NCBI GenBank assembly: GCA_949290355.1
Contig: CASERN010000008.1
Coordinates: forward strand, 62,001-126,000
Length of the DNA stretch: 64,000 nt
Source: an uncultured bacterium
GTDB taxonomy: Bacteria > Cyanobacteriota > Vampirovibrionia > Gastranaerophilales > Gastranaerophilaceae
Direction: 5' to 3'
Made by a program: the position numbers and the translations under genes
Notes under the pieces: model-generated
Databases searched by the model: none
What the model saw: the letters and a program-made list of their open reading frames with translations, nothing else
What the model was told of the DNA's origin: nothing
Shown: one piece after another, positions 23,380-43,609 of the stretch
Layout: every line of letters begins with the position of its first letter
How positions within the stretch are numbered: the stretch's first letter is position 1

Positions 23380-24579
23380 ATGTCATTACTTGGAAAATAC
23401 ACAGATAATTTAATAGAAGAAGAAGAAAACGAACAAACAGAATACCAAACACCTGTTGTTTTGAAAAATGATGAAGAAATAAGTTTGAAAAAATCTATAA
23501 TTATTTCAACACTTCTTCATCCTACAGTTGCAGGTATAATATGGCTAATTGTATTTTTACTTGCATTAATGGGTATTACATTTACTATTTTTGAAAAACC
23601 AAAACCAAAAGTAAATGATATTGAATTTGTCTTAGTTGACAAAGAAGAAACACCTATTAATAAAAATACACCGTACAGAGCAGATATAAACTCAAGAGCT
23701 GGCGGACATCATGACCCTACAAGAAGAGTGTCAATGCCTTCTCCGGCTCCTGGTACACCTACACAAGCGACGAAACAAGCTGCTCAGCCGGCTAAAAAAG
23801 TTGCTCAAAAACCTGCCCCTGCACAAAACCCATTACAAAAAATTGTAAAACAGGTAACTCAACAGGTACAGCAGCCACAAGCACCTAAAAAAGTTCAACA
23901 ACAAGCTGTTTCAGGGCCAAAAGCTCCACAGCAGGCAAAACCGGCACCTCCAACAGCAAGACCATCTATAAAACCTCCAACAACACCTAGACCTGTAGCT
24001 AGACCATCTTCAGCATTCACAGTCCCGGTTCCAAAAGGTGGAACAGGATCAGGCAGATATACTACAGGCCCTATAAGCGGTTCAGGTGTAGCCTCTAAAG
24101 GTGGAGGCGGTGGAGGGAATTCATCTTCTGGCAACGGTAAATACGCACCTGCACCATCTTTGGCACCGACCGGCGGCTCAAGCAGTAAACTTGCTAAAGG
24201 CGGCGGTGGAGGAACTGGCGGCTACGGAAACCCAGGACCTGGAAATCCAAACGGCAGACCTGGTATTGATGCAATCAGAGAACCTGATTTCGGTCCATAT
24301 ATGAGAGAACTACAAAGACGTATAAAAATGAATTGGGATCCTCCTAAAGGAAACGAAAGCAAACGTGTAGTGCTTCATTTCAAAATAGCAAAAGACGGAA
24401 GATTACTATCATGCAGTGTATTTAAATCATCTGGATTACCAAGTGCTGATAAGGCTGCCATAAATGCAGTTCAAGCAACAGCACCATTCAGACCGCTTCC
24501 TGCAGAATTCAAAGGACCAAGCATTGATATACAATTTACATTTGATTATAACGTATTTGGAGCATCTGGATATCACTAA
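23380..24579 (+). CDS. TonB-like energy transducer
   Basis: The 399-residue protein has a cytoplasmic N-terminus of about 40 residues, one membrane helix (about 45-68), a long Pro/Ala/Lys/Gln and Gly-rich periplasmic spacer (about 110-295) and a TonB C-terminal domain (about 305-398: MRELQRRIKMNWDPPKG, VVLHFKIAKDGRLLSC, SGLPSADKAAINAVQATAPF). It transmits proton-motive force to outer-membrane receptors together with the following ExbB and ExbD proteins. There is no good Shine-Dalgarno at the ATG; TATAAC lies seven bases upstream. TolA is an alternative name, but the C-terminal domain reads as TonB. Confidence 0.88.
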   Translation: MSLLGKYTDNLIEEEENEQTEYQTPVVLKNDEEISLKKSIIISTLLHPTVAGIIWLIVFLLALMGITFTIFEKPKPKVNDIEFVLVDKEETPINKNTPYRADINSRAGGHHDPTRRVSMPSPAPGTPTQATKQAAQPAKKVAQKPAPAQNPLQKIVKQVTQQVQQPQAPKKVQQQAVSGPKAPQQAKPAPPTARPSIKPPTTPRPVARPSSAFTVPVPKGGTGSGRYTTGPISGSGVASKGGGGGGNSSSGNGKYAPAPSLAPTGGSSSKLAKGGGGGTGGYGNPGPGNPNGRPGIDAIREPDFGPYMRELQRRIKMNWDPPKGNESKRVVLHFKIAKDGRLLSCSVFKSSGLPSADKAAINAVQATAPFRPLPAEFKGPSIDIQFTFDYNVFGASGYH

Positions 24580-24638
24580 TCAAAAAAAAAAGAAGTTAAC
24601 TAATGAAAAATTATAAGGAAAAAAGAGGATAAAAAATT

Positions 24639-25286
24639 ATGGAACTATTATTACACTCAATTGCAATGGACTGGCCTGTACTATTACCAATATTAGTATG
24701 TTCAATTTTGGTAGTAGCGGTCGTTATCAACAGATTTTCATTCTACAAAAAGAATAAAAGAGATGTTGTTTTGCTTATCCCAAGATTACAAAAAGAACTT
24801 GTAAAAAACAATCTTGATGGCGCACAAAATTTAGCTATTCAATGTGGCGGAGTAATAGGTGAAGTTACAGAAGAAGCTGTAAGAATCTTTTCAGAACAAA
24901 AAAACGGATTTTCTCGTTCATTTGATATCGCAGCATCATTAGCTTCTAGAAAACTTGAAAGCCATTTAACAATTTTAGGTACAATTGGTGGTGTTGCTCC
25001 GTTTTTAGGTTTGTTTGGAACTGTTGTAAGAATTCTTTTCACATTCCAAGATTTGGCAGCACAAGGCAACCAATCAGCAGCAGTTGCATCAGGTATTGCA
25101 TCAGCGTTGATTGCTACAGCTTTTGGTTTAGGAGTTGCTATTGTTGCAGTAATCTTCTACAATTCATTCCAATCAATTGTAAAAAGATATGAGGATGATT
25201 TCCAACTAATTAAATTGTTATTCTTAAGCTTTGTAGATTCAAATGACGAATCAACAACACCAAGCAATGCTAATATTTCACTATAA
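24639..25286 (+). CDS. exbB: ExbB/TolQ proton channel subunit
   Basis: ExbB forms the inner-membrane pentamer around ExbD and drives TonB. The 215-residue protein has three helices (about 13-33, 107-130 and 147-172) and the family block LTILGTIGGVAPFLGLFGTVVRI followed by SGIASALIATAFGLGVAI. It follows the TonB-like gene by 59 bases and precedes the first ExbD by 14. TolQ cannot be excluded on sequence alone, but the downstream genes and the TonB domain favour Exb. Confidence 0.92.
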   Translation: MELLLHSIAMDWPVLLPILVCSILVVAVVINRFSFYKKNKRDVVLLIPRLQKELVKNNLDGAQNLAIQCGGVIGEVTEEAVRIFSEQKNGFSRSFDIAASLASRKLESHLTILGTIGGVAPFLGLFGTVVRILFTFQDLAAQGNQSAAVASGIASALIATAFGLGVAIVAVIFYNSFQSIVKRYEDDFQLIKLLFLSFVDSNDESTTPSNANISL

Positions 25287-25300
25287 AAAGGGTAAAAAAA

Positions 25301-25759
25301 ATGAGCATGAAAACAAACAAGGGTAAAGAAGCCCTGTTTACAGAAATAAATATAACACCATTAACAGATATATTTCTTGTTTTGTTGATTATAATGATGG
25401 TTGTTGCACCAACATTTCAATCAAATGACAGTTCAATATCAATACCTGAAATTAACAGTGGAATTTCAATTGATCAGAAAAATGCTACTGTATCAGTAAC
25501 AAAAGATGGGAAAATGTATTTAAACGGAACTCCCGTTACAGAAGACAATTTGACAAATGAACTTGTTTCTTTAAAAGCGCAACTTGAGAAACCAGAGCTT
25601 GTTGTAAAAGCTGATGAAAGAGTTAAAAGTGCAAAAATAATGGAAATCATGAATGCAGCACAAGATGCAGAATACAAAAAACTTATTGTAGCAGGAGAAC
25701 CATTAAGTAAAAAAGAACAAAAAGAATTGGAAAAACGAGCTATATCGCCTGCAACATAA
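25301..25759 (+). CDS. exbD: ExbD/TolR protein, first copy
   Basis: The 152-residue biopolymer transport protein has the ExbD start FTEINITPLTDIFLVLLIIMM, where the Asp in the helix carries protons, followed by a periplasmic domain (VSVTKDGKMYLNGTPVT, ELVVKADERVKSAKIMEIMNAAQDA). Its C-terminus has an extra Lys/Glu-rich tail compared with the second copy. It is 14 bases after exbB and 18 bases before exbD copy 2, all in one operon. Confidence 0.92.
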   Translation: MSMKTNKGKEALFTEINITPLTDIFLVLLIIMMVVAPTFQSNDSSISIPEINSGISIDQKNATVSVTKDGKMYLNGTPVTEDNLTNELVSLKAQLEKPELVVKADERVKSAKIMEIMNAAQDAEYKKLIVAGEPLSKKEQKELEKRAISPAT

Positions 25760-25777
25760 AGTCTAAAGGGAAAACTA

Positions 25778-26167
25778 ATGAGTAGAAATCGAGATACATT
25801 TAATGAAATAAATATTACTCCATTAACAGATATTTTTCTTGTTTTGTTGATTATAATGATGGTAATTGCACCAATGTTAGATCAACAAGGTTTGAATCTT
25901 ACCGTACCTGAGAACGTTGCTCAAGAACAACAGCAAAAAGAAACTAAAATTATGACAATAATGGTTGATGCAGGAGATAAATTCTATCTGGACGGTGCAG
26001 AAGTTCCTGCCGCAAATCTTGAAGATACTATTAGATCTCAAGCTAAAAATTATCCTGACGGACTTTTAATAAAAACAGATGCAGATTCTTCTCACGGAGC
26101 TATGGTAAAAGTCATGGATAGCGCAAGAAATTCAGGTATTACAAGTATATCCGTTGATCAAATCTAA
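25778..26167 (+). CDS. exbD: ExbD/TolR protein, second copy
   Basis: The 129-residue paralogue has the same helix with its proton-carrying Asp (INITPLTDIFLVLLIIMM) and a diverged periplasmic part (MVDAGDKFYLDGAEVPAANLED, LLIKTDADSSHGAMVKVMDSARNSG). In DNA its helix-coding part is almost identical to the first copy (44 bases with one mismatch), while the rest differs, which suggests gene conversion or strong constraint. ExbD is a dimer, so two paralogues may form a heterodimer. Confidence 0.92.
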   Translation: MSRNRDTFNEINITPLTDIFLVLLIIMMVIAPMLDQQGLNLTVPENVAQEQQQKETKIMTIMVDAGDKFYLDGAEVPAANLEDTIRSQAKNYPDGLLIKTDADSSHGAMVKVMDSARNSGITSISVDQI

Positions 26168-35953: not shown

Positions 35954-36373
35954 TTAAGCATCTACATTATTTGCATCGCTTGGATTAGTTCCTTTAAATT
36001 TAGAAGCAATTTTTTCCCAAAGTTCTTTCCCGCTCTTACCAACTGAATAGAAGAAATCTTGAGCTTTATTCATAAATGTTTTTGTTGCACCTTCTGCAAC
36101 ATCTGCATTAGCTAATTTGTTTTTAGCAACCGCAACAGACAAACCGACATAAGCTAATGCTAAAAGTCCAACAAGTGAACCTATTACAGCTCCTGCTTTA
36201 CTTTTTTTTGCTTTGCCTTCTTCTTGTTCAGCTCCTTTTTCAAAAGAATCAGCTTGAGTTTCAGCTTTTGGAGCTTCAGTTGCTGCATATTTGCCTGGAG
36301 AATTAATTAAATCTTGAGCATTTGGCGCTACGGTCTCACCTTTAAAATTAATGCTTGAAACAGAACTTATCAT
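35954..36373 (-). CDS. Single-pass membrane protein with INFKG N-terminus, unknown
   Basis: The 139-residue protein starts MISSVSSINFKGETVAPNA. The ATG at 36373 is chosen over one 21 bases upstream because AAAGGAGG lies seven bases ahead of it. Residues 10-55 are Ala/Glu/Lys-rich and disordered, one membrane helix follows (about 60-80, AVIGSLVGLLALAYVGLSVAVA), and the C-terminal part is a soluble helical domain (LWEKIASKF). I do not recognise the family; the INFKG start is shared with two other genes here. Confidence 0.6.
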   Translation of the reverse strand: MISSVSSINFKGETVAPNAQDLINSPGKYAATEAPKAETQADSFEKGAEQEEGKAKKSKAGAVIGSLVGLLALAYVGLSVAVAKNKLANADVAEGATKTFMNKAQDFFYSVGKSGKELWEKIASKFKGTNPSDANNVDA

Positions 36374-36549
36374 GGGAAAACCTCCTTTAATCACACATAA
36401 ATAATATTCACTACATGAAAAACGACTGATGAGTATATTTTGACGAAAATATAAATATTTTTCAATATTTGTTACAAAAATTTACATTTTTATTGGAATA
36501 TTTTTTTTTTCAGTGTCATCTTATTGAATATAAATAAGGAGAAATAGGC

Positions 36550-39500
36550 ATGGGCTACGAACAAGATACTTTAATCTACATTGATGACAAAGACAAAATG
36601 GATGCAAGCGTTGCAGCCAACACTTTTACTAATAAAGATATTAAAAACAGAGCATATATAAATACTCTTGGGGCAGAACTTGCATTAAAATACTTGGCTT
36701 CTGAAAATATCGATGTATCAGGGATTTATAATATACATTCCATAAAAAAAATCCTTGAAGAAATGGATATTTCAGATATTATGCTGCCAAATATACATAT
36801 TGATGTAAGAGTTGTCTTTGATGAAAACGCAATTTTCATACCTAAATCGCACTTTGAATTCAATCTTGTTCCTGATATATACCTTGTTTTCAGTCTGGCT
36901 AAAGATTTATCACATGTGAAATTCATGGGATTTTTTGAACCTAAATTAATAAACAAAAACAATGCCAATAAAGATTATTACTTCATTGAAAAAGAAAAAC
37001 TCATGCCTGTATCAGAACTAAAACATTACATAGAAAATTTCCAAGGCAACACAGTAGAAAAACTTTCTGAGAACGATTTTACAAACTCTGAAAGAATTAT
37101 AATTGCAATGGCTGATAATGATATTTCAGATGACGAAAAAAAGTTTTTAATCACACAACTTACAAAAAGTGCAGAATTGAGAGATAGATTTATTGAATAT
37201 GAGAATTTTGAAACTCTCTCATATAAAGCTGCAACTGACCCAAATATAGACAAAAATAAATTATTCATAAACGAAGCCCAAACTGATAATATCGAGACCG
37301 AGAAAAATGATAAACCTAATAACAATGATATCATCTCAAATATAGCTGATGGAATATTAACTCTTGGAGCTGGAGCAATTGGTGCTACTGGAGCATTCGC
37401 AGCAGAAGAAACAGCAAAATATGCAGATAGTATCGACAAGACTCTTGATATTGTAGATTCTGGCCTTAAGTTAGCAGATCACCTTGTAAATAATGAAACT
37501 AATTCAACTCCTGATATAATATCCTTGGATGATATTGATATTTCTACTATAAATGATGAATTGCCTGCTAATACAGATTCCTCTGAAAATCAAGAAGATA
37601 TAATTTCTTTTGATGACATAAATTCTGATATTCTTGAAAAGAATGATCAAGACAACACTAATGCAGCAAATTTAGATGATGCTATATCGTTTGATGAAAT
37701 TGACACTAATCAAATTGATAAAAACACTGAAAATAACAGCACAGAAGATAATTTCTCTGAAGATTCAATATCTTTTGACAATATTGAGCCGACTCAACTT
37801 ATTGAAGAATCAGCATTAAATATTGATGAAACCCCAATTTCATTTGATGATATTGATACGTCAAACATACCAAATAATATCGAAAATCATTTTGATGAAA
37901 ACATGTTATCCTTGGATGAAATACCTGAAACTCCTTTGTCTGAAAATATCCAACCGATTAATCAGGAAGAAATAGCAATTGACAACATAGAAGATAATAA
38001 CTTAGATGATATTAATAATGCAGAAACTAATGAAATATCTCTAGATGAAAATCAGAACATAGAAATAGAAGATTTAAATCTTGATGAAACTGATACAAAT
38101 GAAATGCAAATAGATCAAGACAACACATCTGATATAAATGATGAAACGGATAAAGTAGATGAAGAACTTCCAGAAATTGACGAAGAAACATCTTCTAATG
38201 ATAATGACACTTCTATAATAGAACCATTAGATAATTTTGAAAAAAATGATGACCTATTGGATAATATTAATATGGATTCAATACAAGAAGATGACCTTGA
38301 AATTGAAAAGCTGAATGAAGATATCACAACTTCATATGATAATCAAGCAAACGAAAACCAAGAGCAATCAGAAAGTTTCGGAAAAAATCTGCTTGATGGT
38401 TTAACACCAGAAAACTTTGATGATATTGAAATTCAAGAATCAGAGAATATAGCAGCCCAAGCTGAAAATATATCTTCAACAGAATTGCTTTCACAAATAG
38501 ATGATGTTTTAAATTCATCTACAAACTCTACAGATAATGAAAATTTTAGAAACGCTGATTCTAATAATTTAATACAAGAAGTTCCAGAAAATATATCAGA
38601 AAATCTGGAGAACTCAAATATAGAAAATAATCCGGAGAATGACCAAAATTCTACTATATCTGATAATGAATTAGGCAGTATCCCTGATATTAATTCAATT
38701 GGAGAAGAACATAATTTCCAAAATGAAAATGAAGAAAATACTATTTCAGATAATCTCAATAATCTACCTGAAGAAAATCGCGAATTAGGACAATACAACG
38801 ATACAACTATTGATGATTTACTAGCAGTAACAGAAGAGATCAATAACAATGCAAGCCAAGTAACATCAGAAGATGAATATAAAATTGATATGTTGTTTAA
38901 TGACTCAGATTCAGATTCAGATTCGGACTTAAATGAATTAGAAAACATTGTGGATGAAACTAGTGATATATCAGAACAACCGATTCCCGGAGCAGCACTT
39001 TTCAACAAAAAATCTACAAACACTAATAAAAAAACATTAATTATAACAGCTGCTGTAATTACTGTTATTGCCGCAGCTTCAGCTGTATTTCTATTAAAAC
39101 CAAAAGACAACAGCGTAACAGACCTAGAACCAATAAATACAGCTCAACCAAATAATACTGTAGCAGATCTAGAAAATCCAATAAATGCTGAAACTACAGA
39201 AAATGTACTTGCAACAAATGCTCCAGACATAAATAAAACAAACTCTACACAAAAACAAAAAATTAATGAACTAAAAAGCACACCAACAAAACAAAAAAAT
39301 GTATCATCTGAATCTTCACTATCTGTAAGCAGATTAGTGTGGGATGTTCCTGATGCACTTTCATACAGCCCTAAAATGCAAAATTACCTAAGAACTGCAG
39401 GTAAAAGCATAAAATTAACTTTATCGGCAGATTTACTACTTGCAACAGAATATGCTTATACAAATCAAGTTAAAGTTAATTTAAAAATATCTCAAAACGG

Positions 39501-39657
39501 CTCTGTACAACAAGCAAATATAGGTTCCAGCAGTGGTTCAAGCCAAATTGATGAAATTGTGTTACAATCTGTTAAAGATACACTAAATGTCGTCAAACCG
39601 CCATCTGACGAGATTAAGAGCCCTGACTTCAATTTAAGTCTTATCATATACTTTTAA
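36550..39657 (+). CDS. Giant acidic membrane protein with repeated ISFDDI motifs and TonB-like C-terminus
   Basis: I do not recognise a named family for this 1035-residue protein. Residues 1-200 form a folded N-terminal domain; 200-300 hold a small Ala/Gly-rich hydrophobic patch; 320-510 contain about eight degenerate copies of an ISFDDID-type motif (ISLDDID, ISFDDIN, ISFDEID, ISFDNIE); the remainder to 825 is Asp/Glu/Asn-rich with an SDSDSD run. One membrane helix (about 828-849) precedes a Thr/Asn linker and a C-terminal TonB-type domain (about 930-1035: VKVNLKISQNGSVQQANIGSSSGS). The topology suggests an acidic cytoplasmic scaffold joined to a periplasmic TonB-like tip. AAGGAG precedes the ATG. 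It is followed by a sigma-like gene 10 bases away. Confidence 0.7.
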   Translation: MGYEQDTLIYIDDKDKMDASVAANTFTNKDIKNRAYINTLGAELALKYLASENIDVSGIYNIHSIKKILEEMDISDIMLPNIHIDVRVVFDENAIFIPKSHFEFNLVPDIYLVFSLAKDLSHVKFMGFFEPKLINKNNANKDYYFIEKEKLMPVSELKHYIENFQGNTVEKLSENDFTNSERIIIAMADNDISDDEKKFLITQLTKSAELRDRFIEYENFETLSYKAATDPNIDKNKLFINEAQTDNIETEKNDKPNNNDIISNIADGILTLGAGAIGATGAFAAEETAKYADSIDKTLDIVDSGLKLADHLVNNETNSTPDIISLDDIDISTINDELPANTDSSENQEDIISFDDINSDILEKNDQDNTNAANLDDAISFDEIDTNQIDKNTENNSTEDNFSEDSISFDNIEPTQLIEESALNIDETPISFDDIDTSNIPNNIENHFDENMLSLDEIPETPLSENIQPINQEEIAIDNIEDNNLDDINNAETNEISLDENQNIEIEDLNLDETDTNEMQIDQDNTSDINDETDKVDEELPEIDEETSSNDNDTSIIEPLDNFEKNDDLLDNINMDSIQEDDLEIEKLNEDITTSYDNQANENQEQSESFGKNLLDGLTPENFDDIEIQESENIAAQAENISSTELLSQIDDVLNSSTNSTDNENFRNADSNNLIQEVPENISENLENSNIENNPENDQNSTISDNELGSIPDINSIGEEHNFQNENEENTISDNLNNLPEENRELGQYNDTTIDDLLAVTEEINNNASQVTSEDEYKIDMLFNDSDSDSDSDLNELENIVDETSDISEQPIPGAALFNKKSTNTNKKTLIITAAVITVIAAASAVFLLKPKDNSVTDLEPINTAQPNNTVADLENPINAETTENVLATNAPDINKTNSTQKQKINELKSTPTKQKNVSSESSLSVSRLVWDVPDALSYSPKMQNYLRTAGKSIKLTLSADLLLATEYAYTNQVKVNLKISQNGSVQQANIGSSSGSSQIDEIVLQSVKDTLNVVKPPSDEIKSPDFNLSLIIYF

Positions 39658-39660
39658 TTA

Positions 39661-39669
39661 TGCTATAAT
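39661..39669 (+). promoter_or_regulatory. Internal extended -10 before the sigma-like gene
   Basis: TGC-TATAAT is a perfect extended -10, but its last bases overlap the ATG at 39668. RNA starting about seven bases later would lack that ATG and instead carry AAGGA (39681-39685) nine bases before an in-frame GTG at 39695, so an internal promoter may supply a shorter product. Confidence 0.45.
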
Positions 39670-40264
39670 GTGGGAAGAACAAGGAAACTATAAAGTGGAA
39701 TTAGCTCAAGATAAAATAGATTTAATTGAAAAGATTATAAAAAGTGATAGAAAATTTGCAAATAATGAAGATTTATACGATGATTTCTTCAATGAAACTT
39801 GCAAGCGTTCTTGCCTGATTGTAAAAACAGTAAGTTCTGATGCTACATTAGAAGCATACTTAAGAAAAATTGCTACCACATCTATTTTAAACGTTCTTAA
39901 AAATGAAGGCAGACTAAGAAGAACCAGAAGCGGTTATATGTCTACACATGAGATTCCGATAGAAACTGCTGTCCATTCAAGTGTGCCTGATTATTCAAAA
40001 TTGGAAGTTAAATATGAACCGGTAGATATACAAGATACTCCAGAAGATTTTGCTATCAAAAAAGAAATTTTACAAAAAATTATTGATACAGTATATGAAA
40101 TTGACAAAACTTCTCCTGATAAAAATTACTTGAGACTCTATGATTTAAGGTTTGAAAAGGGCATGACTCAAAAAGAAATAGCTCAAGAGTTAGATTTATC
40201 TCAGTCCGAAGTATCTAAAAGACTTTTTAAATTAATGGAAATGGTTAAGCAAGCATTTAATTAG
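39668..40264 (+). CDS. Sigma-70-like (ECF-type) regulator
   Basis: The 198-residue protein looks like a divergent sigma factor. Residues 20-80 resemble region 2 (DDFFNETCKRSCLIVKTVSSDATLEAYLRKIATTSILNVLKNEGR-like), a linker with acidic residues follows, and the C-terminus has a clear helix-turn-helix (MTQKEIAQELDLSQSEVSKRLFKLM) as in region 4. It lies between the acidic membrane protein and the STAND-like ATPase, with gaps of 10 and 13 bases. The start may be ATG 39668 or GTG 39695; the latter has AAGGA nine bases upstream. It may act as a dedicated sigma factor for this system; an RpoE-like partner anti-sigma was not seen. Confidence 0.7.
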   Translation: MWEEQGNYKVELAQDKIDLIEKIIKSDRKFANNEDLYDDFFNETCKRSCLIVKTVSSDATLEAYLRKIATTSILNVLKNEGRLRRTRSGYMSTHEIPIETAVHSSVPDYSKLEVKYEPVDIQDTPEDFAIKKEILQKIIDTVYEIDKTSPDKNYLRLYDLRFEKGMTQKEIAQELDLSQSEVSKRLFKLMEMVKQAFN

Positions 40265-40277
40265 GTGTTTTTAAATA

Positions 40278-43244
40278 ATGAAATGTCCGATATGCAAAAA
40301 AACAATTCCTGACAACACGCTTAAATGCCCTTATTGTAAAGCAAGAACAGGCTTAATTTGTAAAAATTGCAATACAGTAAATTCTATTTTTGATTTCAAA
40401 TGTAAAAATTGTGGCACTGAAATTCTTAAACAGTGTCCAAATTGTAGCAGTATAAATTTCCCTAATGCTGAAAAATGCAGAAGTTGTGGCTATGTATTCA
40501 TTCAGCCTAAAAAGCAAGAGTCTGAAGACAAAGATTTAAAAATAGAATATCCCGCTAACCTTGTATCACAACAAAGTGCAAAAAATATTTTATCAAAAGG
40601 AATTTTATCAAAATACAAGAAAATATTTTCACTTAGTGGTGATAAAGGAACAGGCAAAAGCCTTGTTTTAAAGTCAGTTATGCAGGATTTAAAGCAAAAG
40701 AACTTTTCTTGGTTATATGGCAAATGTACACCAATCACTCAATTAACTCCAGGAGGACTTATTCAAGATATTCTACTTAATATCTTTAATTTGCCAAATT
40801 TTTGTTTAAACAATTTACAATTTAAAAAAGATGCATCAAAATTTTTCAAAAATGAATTTCCGGATCTTAACAATAACGAAATTTTTGATCTGATTAACTT
40901 TTTATACCCCAGTAAAGAAGGTACTTTTGAAGAAATTGTTTCCAACAAAAATAAAACATTTAACATTCTATTTAAAATTTTTAACAAATTTACCTCTGCA
41001 AATAAATTTATTATTGTAATAGACAATTTTGATTACATAGATGGATTTTCTTACGAATTTATAAGCCGGTACATAAATCAAGATACAATATGGGATGATT
41101 TAAAATTCCTTTTAATATATAACGAATGCAAGCCTGCAAAGGGATATTTTTACTTCCCAGATCGTAAAGACGATAAAATATATCTTGATGTTGGGATAGC
41201 ACCTATTGAATTTAAACAAATCAATATGCTAGTTGAACAAAAATATAAAAGGATTGAAGGTTTCCCACAACTTGGGACATCTGAGCTTAAAGAAATATAT
41301 AAAATGAGCAAAGGAAATCCTTCTTACATCAACCAAGCATTAGATCTGTGTTTTGATTGCCAACTAAGTAGCAGCGAATTTGAATTATCAACATCATTTA
41401 AAGGGCTTCTAGAATTAAGACTTGCACTATTAGAACATTTAAATCCTATAGCATATGATATCCTTTTAGGAGCAGCCATTATAGGTGATAAAATAAATCT
41501 TAACTTAATTAAAGAAATATTCGAAGTTGATGAGAAAACATTTAAAGATATTATGATATATCTTAAAAAAATGGACTATATTAGCCCTGTCAACGAAATC
41601 TATTTTGAATTTAGCTCTTTACAATTGTGGGAAACAATACTAAAAACAACAAAAAATGACCCAAATTATAAAAAAATCAACAAAAAGATATTTGAATACC
41701 TTACAGGTTTTACTCTAAACTCTCTGGCAATCTTAGGTATTATAGCACAAAACCTAAAACAATCACAACTTGCGTTAGAAATTTGGAGCAAAACTACAAG
41801 ATTAGCATCATATATTGGAGACTTAAATCTTTATGCTATATCACAAAAACAATCTCTTGCATTAATTAATGAATTTGATGAAAAAGATACTCTAAAAATC
41901 AGATATAACATATCCGAACGATTGGGAAAACTTTTAGCTAATTCAAATCCTATAGAAGCTATAGAATATTTACCTGATGCAATTTCTAATGCTCAAGCTA
42001 TTGGCAACAGCCCAAAAGAAATCGAATTATTAGCATACCTTGCTTCCTGCTGCCGAAAAACAGGTAATTACTTTGGAGAAGTTGAATGTGTCGATTCTGT
42101 AATATCAAAAGCAAAACAAGATAACCCTCTAGAAATTGCATTACTTAAAACGACAAAATTGAACGCTTTGTTAAACATCGGAAACTGCGGACAAATTATC
42201 AATATGATTGATAATGAAATTATGCCGGTATTTGACCAATACTTTTGCAACACTAAAAACCAAAAAGACCCTCAATTCCCGTTTATCTATGAAAGTTGGA
42301 TAAAAACATACCTTGTTTTAGCTAATGCATTAGTTATCCAAGGGAATGACAGATCTTTTGAAATTCTGACAATTCTTTTTGATATCATTGAAAGAAATCA
42401 AATTAAAGATGAACTATTTATATGCAAATGTAAACTAACTTTAGCTTTTGCAAACTCAATGAAAGGTAACTTTAAAGCCTCTGAGCAAATGCTAGAAGAT
42501 GTATTGAAATCATATAAAGAAAATGTAATGGATAATGAGACAATTATTCGTTGGAACTTTATTAATATATTGAACAATTTCTTTAGAAAACAATACAATG
42601 GTATGCAGGAAGATTTATTCCAAATCGTTACTTTTGCAAATAACAACGGTGATAACTTTACAAAAAACGTTTTGAAAACATTGCTTGGAAAAATATTTAA
42701 AGACAGCGATAATACCAAACAAGCTATGGAAATTTATAACGATCAAATTGCTTATTTTGCGAAAGAAAAAATGGCAATAGGTGCTCTCCTAACTTGGTAT
42801 TTAATATCAGAAGCAACATTAATTACCGAAGGTGCTCAAAATGCAATAGAAATAGCAGAACAAGCTTTAGAAGTTGCTCAAAATCCCAAAATTGATAACT
42901 ACTTCTTTACAATTCTATTAAGAATAGTCATAGTAAAATGTTGTCTAGCTACATCTGATTTTGAAACAGCACAAATCCATCTTGATAGTGCAATGCTTCT
43001 TGCAAAAAAATACAGCCTGAATGATATTCTATCAAGAATCTATTTACTATATGGGAAATATTATCAAGAACTTGGACTGAACAAATCAGCTCTCCAAACA
43101 GAATACTTAAAAAATGCAAACAAAATGTATGAACAAGCTAAAGAATTAACCGAAAATACCCGCAATCCATATGTCATTAAAGATTTAAAACAATCTATAA
43201 AAGCATTATCAACTTTTTGTGTAATGAATAATATTAAAGTTTAA
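40278..43244 (+). CDS. Triple zinc-ribbon STAND-like ATPase with helical repeats
   Basis: The 988-residue protein opens with three zinc ribbons (CPIC/CPYC, CKNC/CKNC and CPNC/CRSC, residues 3-70), then a P-loop ATPase domain with Walker A GDKGTGKS at 121-128 and Walker B-like FIIVIDNFDYI near 250. A winged-helix-like stretch and a long run of helical TPR-type repeats (about 470-980) follow. This is the layout of STAND or adenylyl-cyclase-associated ATPases that sense a ligand and oligomerise. No output domain such as a nuclease, TIR or cyclase is visible. It ends the acidic-protein/sigma operon. The exact family and target are unknown. Confidence 0.75.
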   Translation: MKCPICKKTIPDNTLKCPYCKARTGLICKNCNTVNSIFDFKCKNCGTEILKQCPNCSSINFPNAEKCRSCGYVFIQPKKQESEDKDLKIEYPANLVSQQSAKNILSKGILSKYKKIFSLSGDKGTGKSLVLKSVMQDLKQKNFSWLYGKCTPITQLTPGGLIQDILLNIFNLPNFCLNNLQFKKDASKFFKNEFPDLNNNEIFDLINFLYPSKEGTFEEIVSNKNKTFNILFKIFNKFTSANKFIIVIDNFDYIDGFSYEFISRYINQDTIWDDLKFLLIYNECKPAKGYFYFPDRKDDKIYLDVGIAPIEFKQINMLVEQKYKRIEGFPQLGTSELKEIYKMSKGNPSYINQALDLCFDCQLSSSEFELSTSFKGLLELRLALLEHLNPIAYDILLGAAIIGDKINLNLIKEIFEVDEKTFKDIMIYLKKMDYISPVNEIYFEFSSLQLWETILKTTKNDPNYKKINKKIFEYLTGFTLNSLAILGIIAQNLKQSQLALEIWSKTTRLASYIGDLNLYAISQKQSLALINEFDEKDTLKIRYNISERLGKLLANSNPIEAIEYLPDAISNAQAIGNSPKEIELLAYLASCCRKTGNYFGEVECVDSVISKAKQDNPLEIALLKTTKLNALLNIGNCGQIINMIDNEIMPVFDQYFCNTKNQKDPQFPFIYESWIKTYLVLANALVIQGNDRSFEILTILFDIIERNQIKDELFICKCKLTLAFANSMKGNFKASEQMLEDVLKSYKENVMDNETIIRWNFINILNNFFRKQYNGMQEDLFQIVTFANNNGDNFTKNVLKTLLGKIFKDSDNTKQAMEIYNDQIAYFAKEKMAIGALLTWYLISEATLITEGAQNAIEIAEQALEVAQNPKIDNYFFTILLRIVIVKCCLATSDFETAQIHLDSAMLLAKKYSLNDILSRIYLLYGKYYQELGLNKSALQTEYLKNANKMYEQAKELTENTRNPYVIKDLKQSIKALSTFCVMNNIKV

Positions 43245-43315: not shown

Positions 43316-43609
43316 ATGCACGAATGTAATCATACACATCATTGCACCCATGAAGGGCACAATTGCAGCCATGGAGAAGGTCATCACTGCCACAATCAAG
43401 AAGAAGGACATCAATGTCATGGAGGCGGATGTCAAGGTAAAGGTCAATGGGGTGGTAAAAGAGAAGGGGCAGGCAGAAAATGCGAAAATCCTAAAATACC
43501 TTTTAACAGAAGACTAAGTGAAGAATTAATAAATAAATTAAAAACTTATGCACAAGAAAATAATATAACCGAAACAGAAGCACTTGAAAAAGCTATAGAA
43601 AATTTATAA
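43316..43609 (+). CDS. His/Cys-rich metal-binding protein with ribbon-helix-helix-like C-terminus
   Basis: The 97-residue protein has twelve His and six Cys in its first 40 residues (for example HECNHTHHC, HEGHNC, HGEGHHCH), strongly suggesting zinc, nickel or copper binding. A glycine-rich link with WGGKREGAGRK leads to PFNRRLSEELINKLKTYAQE, which resembles a ribbon-helix-helix or small plasmid-type DNA-binding fold. A metal-responsive regulator, storage protein or chaperone would all fit. The GAAAGGAGAT site and a strong promoter support high expression. An overlapping frame at 43266 is a shadow. A terminator follows. Confidence 0.75.
   Translation: MHECNHTHHCTHEGHNCSHGEGHHCHNQEEGHQCHGGGCQGKGQWGGKREGAGRKCENPKIPFNRRLSEELINKLKTYAQENNITETEALEKAIENL

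Follow-up and report, generated by a model that had tools for sequence, protein, structure and literature searches.

Three adjoining genes on one strand

Three closely spaced genes follow one another on the plus strand of the window, by which we mean the whole 64,000-nucleotide stretch of DNA analysed here, taken from a genome of 1.85 Mb. Gene A (36550..39657) encodes 1035 aa, read here as a DUF1822 domain followed by a degenerate anti-sigma domain, an acidic linker, a transmembrane helix and a TonB-like end. Gene B (39668..40264) encodes an ECF-type sigma factor of 198 aa, judged by its profile matches, and gene C (40278..43244) a protein of 988 aa with zinc ribbons, a STAND-like AAA_16 P-loop domain and a TPR array. 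The gaps are 10 bp between A and B and 13 bp between B and C. An earlier reading of the bare sequence, the original prediction, had placed all three open reading frames correctly; it had passed over two parts of A, DUF1822 and the anti-sigma domain, as well as a conserved promoter at 36494-36524.

Two small genes flank this set. One, divergent (35954-36394, minus strand), adjoins A and is kept in many relatives, and the conserved intergenic block upstream of A may also contain its promoter. The other, downstream of C (43316-43609, plus strand), encodes a His/Cys-rich protein of 97 aa with a weak ribbon-helix-helix match and is found in few relatives.

Conservation across the order

The window belongs to the Gastranaerophilales, an abundant and uncultured order of gut bacteria related to cyanobacteria, within which A-B-C is a conserved operon. 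The expectation that the trio would stay together in relatives was borne out: among 80 loci found with a B profile, 75 show the order A-B-C, and in the other five, whose upstream sequence is short, A was not found. A and B are adjacent in six of the seven families (f1, f2, f3, f4, f5 and f7). Protein C has a match in 190 of the 192 genomes of the order and in all 45 genera, which together with the 75 A-B-C loci goes far beyond chance. When the phylum was searched, three genomes from another order of the class yielded no close homologue of C, and the matches in other cyanobacteria were no more than weak. Its gene follows B in f5, f7 and most of f1, and lies elsewhere in f2, f3, f4, f6 and some f1 genera. 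Since A-B adjacency is broad and the linkage of C patchy, the stable core of the system is A-B, with C as a frequent companion; C as a fixed member was rejected, given that it is unlinked in several lineages. No adjacent B was detected next to A in genera g17 and g18, both of which still have the zinc motif described below, or in family f6. In four loci of family f3 (L160, L161, L162 and L157), B is followed by a protein of about 190 aa with a signal-peptide-like start and by a radical-SAM-like protein, with no C at that place.

Protein A: from DUF1822 to a TonB-like end

The N-terminal DUF1822 domain of A (residues 1-165; 36550..37044, plus strand) was recognised by PF08852 at 28.3 bits against a cut-off of 25 in a search of the genome, and in relatives at up to 53.8 bits, the match covering just the N-terminal half of the 370-position model. 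Because a direct hmmscan of full-length window A did not report PF08852, the assignment leans also on a profile-profile comparison with cyanobacterial DUF1822 (probability 97.4%, E 1.2e-11). The structure model of residues 1-257 has a pLDDT of 90.7. When the A model was compared with the PDB by Foldseek, nothing significant was found, the weak scatter of matches including restriction endonucleases; in a viral library it matched phage proteins with E down to 5.8e-6, and two of these bear the name restriction endonuclease. On this modelling DUF1822 is predicted to adopt a restriction-endonuclease-like fold. Catalysis by the domain in A appears unlikely, because the position of the usual catalytic lysine holds R in the window (IDVR) and R or another residue throughout a 36-row alignment.

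The following segment (residues 174-229; 37069..37236, plus strand) consists of helices of the zf-HC2/ZAS anti-sigma type whose zinc ligands have been lost (H to Q, C to S, C to L). Nineteen relatives of A, from f2, f3, f4 and several deep f1 genera, carry H-x3-C-x2-C in the very columns where the window has Q, S and L, and the helical region remains conserved after the loss. In one relative (L155), DUF1822, zf-HC2 and TonB_2 all score above cut-off within a single protein, zf-HC2 with 25.7 bits against 22.2. Lacking the zf-HC2/ZAS ligands, window A is, by its alignment, a derivative of ZAS and not a member. Zinc ligands may be absent from anti-sigma domains, as in RseA and MucA. The cytoplasmic domain of MucA, from its complex with AlgU, was a weak Foldseek match in the PDB to this region of A (probability about 0.5, E about 3). 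From its place beside the sigma gene, these homologies and this weak fold match, we predict that A is no unknown scaffold but a membrane anti-sigma factor, most likely one that holds B in check.

Beyond the helices lies an acidic, Asn-rich and presumably disordered cytoplasmic linker (37285..39036, plus strand). The original prediction had described a membrane protein with a huge acidic repeat region. The acidic bias (net charge -142 over the 605 aa of residues 246-850) and the one hydrophobic segment stand, whereas TRF found no DNA tandem repeat in this region of the window; tandem repetition was rejected in favour of biased composition. Repeats do occur in the acidic region of some relatives (L036 and L051), and linker length differs widely among relatives. 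The hydrophobic segment is a single predicted transmembrane helix (residues 830-848; 39037..39093, plus strand; hydropathy 2.61), and nearly all complete relatives have such a segment ahead of the TonB end. That end, rightly called TonB-type from the start and predicted to be periplasmic, matches TonB_2 (PF13103; residues 970-1023; 39457..39618, plus strand) at 25.0 bits against a cut-off of 22, and its SSGSxxID motif is widespread among relatives.

Elsewhere in the window, at 23380-26167, a TonB-like gene, one for ExbB and two for ExbD stand side by side, an ExbB/D motor for which the genome, having no detected receptor plug, offers no evident receptor. No TonB receptor Plug domain was matched in the window genome, nor in eight of ten other genomes checked, and ExbD was present in 11 of 11. 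Since no classical TonB receptor turned up in the window genome, A-B-C probably does not receive its input from ordinary TonB transport.

Sigma factor B and the promoter of its operon

Protein B, correctly suspected of being a sigma factor, matches the sigma70-ECF model TIGR02937 at 66 bits against 42.9 (aligned over residues 28-196) and Sigma70_r4 at 30.4 bits against 24.1, which places it among ECF-type sigma factors. Its region 4.2 contains the recognition helix SQSEVSKRL (40199..40225, plus strand). Two homologues of B, of 476 and 296 aa (L046, 6842-8272, and L063, 10911-11801), carry between the N-terminal part and region 4 a long acidic insert that resembles the linker of A.

Upstream of A lies a predicted ECF/sigma-E-type promoter (36494..36524, plus strand), with a -35 element TGGAATA (36494-36500), a 17-nt spacer and a -10 region ATCTTAT (36518-36524). 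A -35 GGAA and a -10 TCT at such spacing resemble promoters of sigma-E-type ECF factors. The TGGAATA...ATCT element was seen in an alignment of A-upstream regions within the genus and then extended to other families. Of 59 loci, 40 have the pattern [TC]GGAATA-N16-18-[AC]TC[TA] ahead of A, where 0.32 would be expected, and all weight-matrix matches of at least 14 bits in 1.45 Mb stand before A.

The presence of this promoter goes with the recognition helix of B. The element was found in 38 of 39 loci whose B has the helix SQxEVSKRL, against none of the 11 loci without it (Fisher p = 3e-10, a value that takes the loci as more independent than their common ancestry allows); helix and promoter are both missing in f3, f7 and g14. 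In a set of loci guided by B the element is present in 73 of 75, a set that partly overlaps the 59 loci and does not replicate the result independently. Two f6 loci have the element although B is not adjacent there. That promoter presence tracks the recognition helix suggests that B most likely transcribes its own operon from 36494-36524.

In the search for a wider regulon, the strict promoter motif was found at the A-B-C operon only. A search for TGGAATA-N12-15-GTCATC in eight genomes of the genus returned essentially the operon alone, as did the weight-matrix scan of 1.45 Mb. The looser pattern GGAATA-N17-MTCT gave 51 matches in three genomes against 20 for the reversed control; we claim no regulon from this, because those extra matches that could be scored lie within coding sequence and score poorly. 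An N-terminal 'FKG'-type motif is weakly enriched in orphan proteins.

Protein C and its missing domain

The description of C as an ATPase with three zinc ribbons and helical repeats proved sound. The ribbons, with six CxxC pairs, occupy 40278-40502, the STAND-like AAA_16 P-loop domain about 40620-41066 (34.2 bits against 32.6) and the TPR array about 41937-43184 (TPR_12, 46.9 bits), all on the plus strand, and Pfam/NCBIfam read the protein as a double zinc ribbon, AAA_16 and TPR. The motifs GDKGTGKS, IVIDNFD and GNPSYI are present, so that C combines what marks a STAND NTPase: an AAA_16-type P-loop domain carrying Walker A and GxP motifs, and repeats after it. At least six CxxC pairs occur in all but one of the relatives examined, and the strict Walker A pattern is missing from many of them.

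In several relatives an insert of about 200 residues separates the ribbons from the AAA domain; window C lacks it. Sequence searches found no PDB or Pfam support for a cyclase fold in this insert; the model of the one from L057 (pLDDT 79.4) matched class III cyclases by Foldseek (CyaB, 3r5g, E 1.6e-10, probability 1.0). Window C has no class III nucleotide cyclase domain, and it seems to have lost a cyclase-fold domain that its relatives have kept. Its own genome encodes a paralogue of C elsewhere (contig C11; L033, 954-4418). This protein of 1154 aa has zinc ribbons, its insert can be aligned with the cyclase-fold inserts of C relatives, and Pfam detects no AAA_16 there. The idea that the unlinked C genes are copies of this paralogue was rejected, all of them being closer to window C.

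Relation to known systems

The closest known parallel is the neighbourhood of ECF sigma, DUF1822 and CHAT/caspase genes in photosynthetic cyanobacteria, where DUF1822 stands after a sigma-like gene and before CHAT/CHASE2 or caspase genes; the sigma-like genes match TIGR02937 at 113 and 106 bits in two loci and weakly or not at all in three others. As here, an ECF-type sigma factor adjoins a DUF1822 protein and a large third gene follows. Unlike there, the DUF1822 gene of our operon comes first, its domain is fused to an anti-sigma domain, a transmembrane helix and a TonB-like end, and the third gene is of the zinc-ribbon/STAND-like/TPR kind, not CHAT or caspase.

A second comparison is with pairs of ECF sigma and membrane anti-sigma factors (RpoE-RseA, AlgU-MucA; ZAS anti-sigma factors such as RsrA). 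The locus shares with them an ECF sigma factor beside a single-pass membrane protein whose cytoplasmic domain is anti-sigma-like, and a GGAA...TCT promoter, here predicted to be autoregulatory. It differs in that the candidate anti-sigma gene is upstream of the sigma gene, and that A has a DUF1822 domain, an acidic linker of several hundred residues and a TonB-like periplasmic end.

Protein C, for its part, recalls the multidomain class III cyclase-AAA/STAND-TPR proteins of the soluble adenylyl cyclase type. In its relatives zinc ribbons come first, followed by a cyclase-fold domain, AAA_16 and TPR, but the cyclase fold is undetectable by sequence in them and missing in window C.

The name 'unrecognised' operon, used in the original prediction, was half right. 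Every protein falls into known families and the pairing of DUF1822 with an ECF sigma factor had already been noted, Kaur et al. 2021 mentioning the two beside CHAT/caspase genes in other bacteria (PMC8195603). For the fusion of DUF1822, anti-sigma remnant, transmembrane helix and TonB-like end, no description was found in the literature searched, and no paper on sigma factors of Gastranaerophilales was found there either.

Proposed mechanism and alternatives

We consider it likely that A-B-C is an autoregulated sigma/anti-sigma operon, in which A acts as a single-pass membrane anti-sigma factor and C is accessory. The gene identities, domain homologies, operon conservation and the conserved promoter with its covariation with B, all computed here, support this reading; the binding of B by A, its release, the nature of the signal and the part of C we infer. 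Against it stand the weakness of the MucA match, the confinement of the strict promoter motif to this operon, the failure to detect a B adjacent to A in g17, g18 and f6, the unlinked C of f2, f3, f4 and f6, the strict Walker A pattern missing from many relatives of C, and the shared ancestry that the Fisher p ignores. The cytoplasmic DUF1822 and ZAS-derived domains of A would hold B, and the long acidic tether and one transmembrane helix would join them to the periplasmic TonB-like domain. B might be freed when either the envelope end or the DUF1822 domain senses a change, and would then recognise TGGAATA-N17-ATCT upstream of A and transcribe A, B and C, so that the response would feed back on itself. 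C may be a cytoplasmic partner tuning A or B, probably descended from an architecture with a cyclase-fold domain. The signal route from envelope to transcription that had been proposed for the three genes together is thus supported and narrowed, its weight now lying on the anti-sigma-derived domain of A, the ECF sigma factor and the B-linked promoter, with C a looser member.

If so, the Gastranaerophilales, an unstudied group, would have a testable envelope-to-gene signalling route in the form of a regulatory module predicted for the whole order, comprising a defined sigma factor, a candidate anti-sigma factor and a promoter sequence open to direct testing. The restriction-endonuclease-like fold also offers a structural reading of DUF1822, and its possible role as a sigma regulator would be relevant to the ECF-DUF1822-caspase/CHAT neighbourhoods of cyanobacteria.

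A more specific form of the proposal would have A worked by an ExbB/ExbD-type motor, with the periplasmic end coupling proton-motive force or envelope strain to the release of B and the restriction-endonuclease-like domain serving as a second, cytoplasmic sensor. This is improbable in our estimation; if true, it would amount to a mechanically driven transcription switch.

Another explanation gives A a chiefly structural role, as a protein of the TolA/TonB kind that spans the envelope, and takes what is left of the zinc finger and the sigma gene next to it as leftovers that lack regulatory coupling in the window lineage. Such a role would fit the loss of the zinc ligands there, the TonB-like end, the exbB/exbD genes of the same window and the ExbD found in every genome checked. 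Yet the helical region is still conserved after ligand loss, and both the adjacency of A to B and the promoter linked to B are retained in different families; we regard the structural role as unlikely.

The published association, together with the CHAT or caspase third genes that accompany the same ECF-DUF1822 pairing in cyanobacteria and the STAND-like nature of C, could also suggest a conflict or programmed-death module with C as its switch. However, Pfam/NCBIfam detected no effector domain in A, B or C, and the occurrence of C in nearly every genome of the order is unlike that of patchy conflict systems; we give this reading little credence.

Finally, with 11 sigma-like matches above cut-off in the window genome, the conserved promoter might be read by another of these factors while B acts elsewhere, which is very improbable, since another sigma factor would leave unexplained why promoter presence follows B's own recognition helix.
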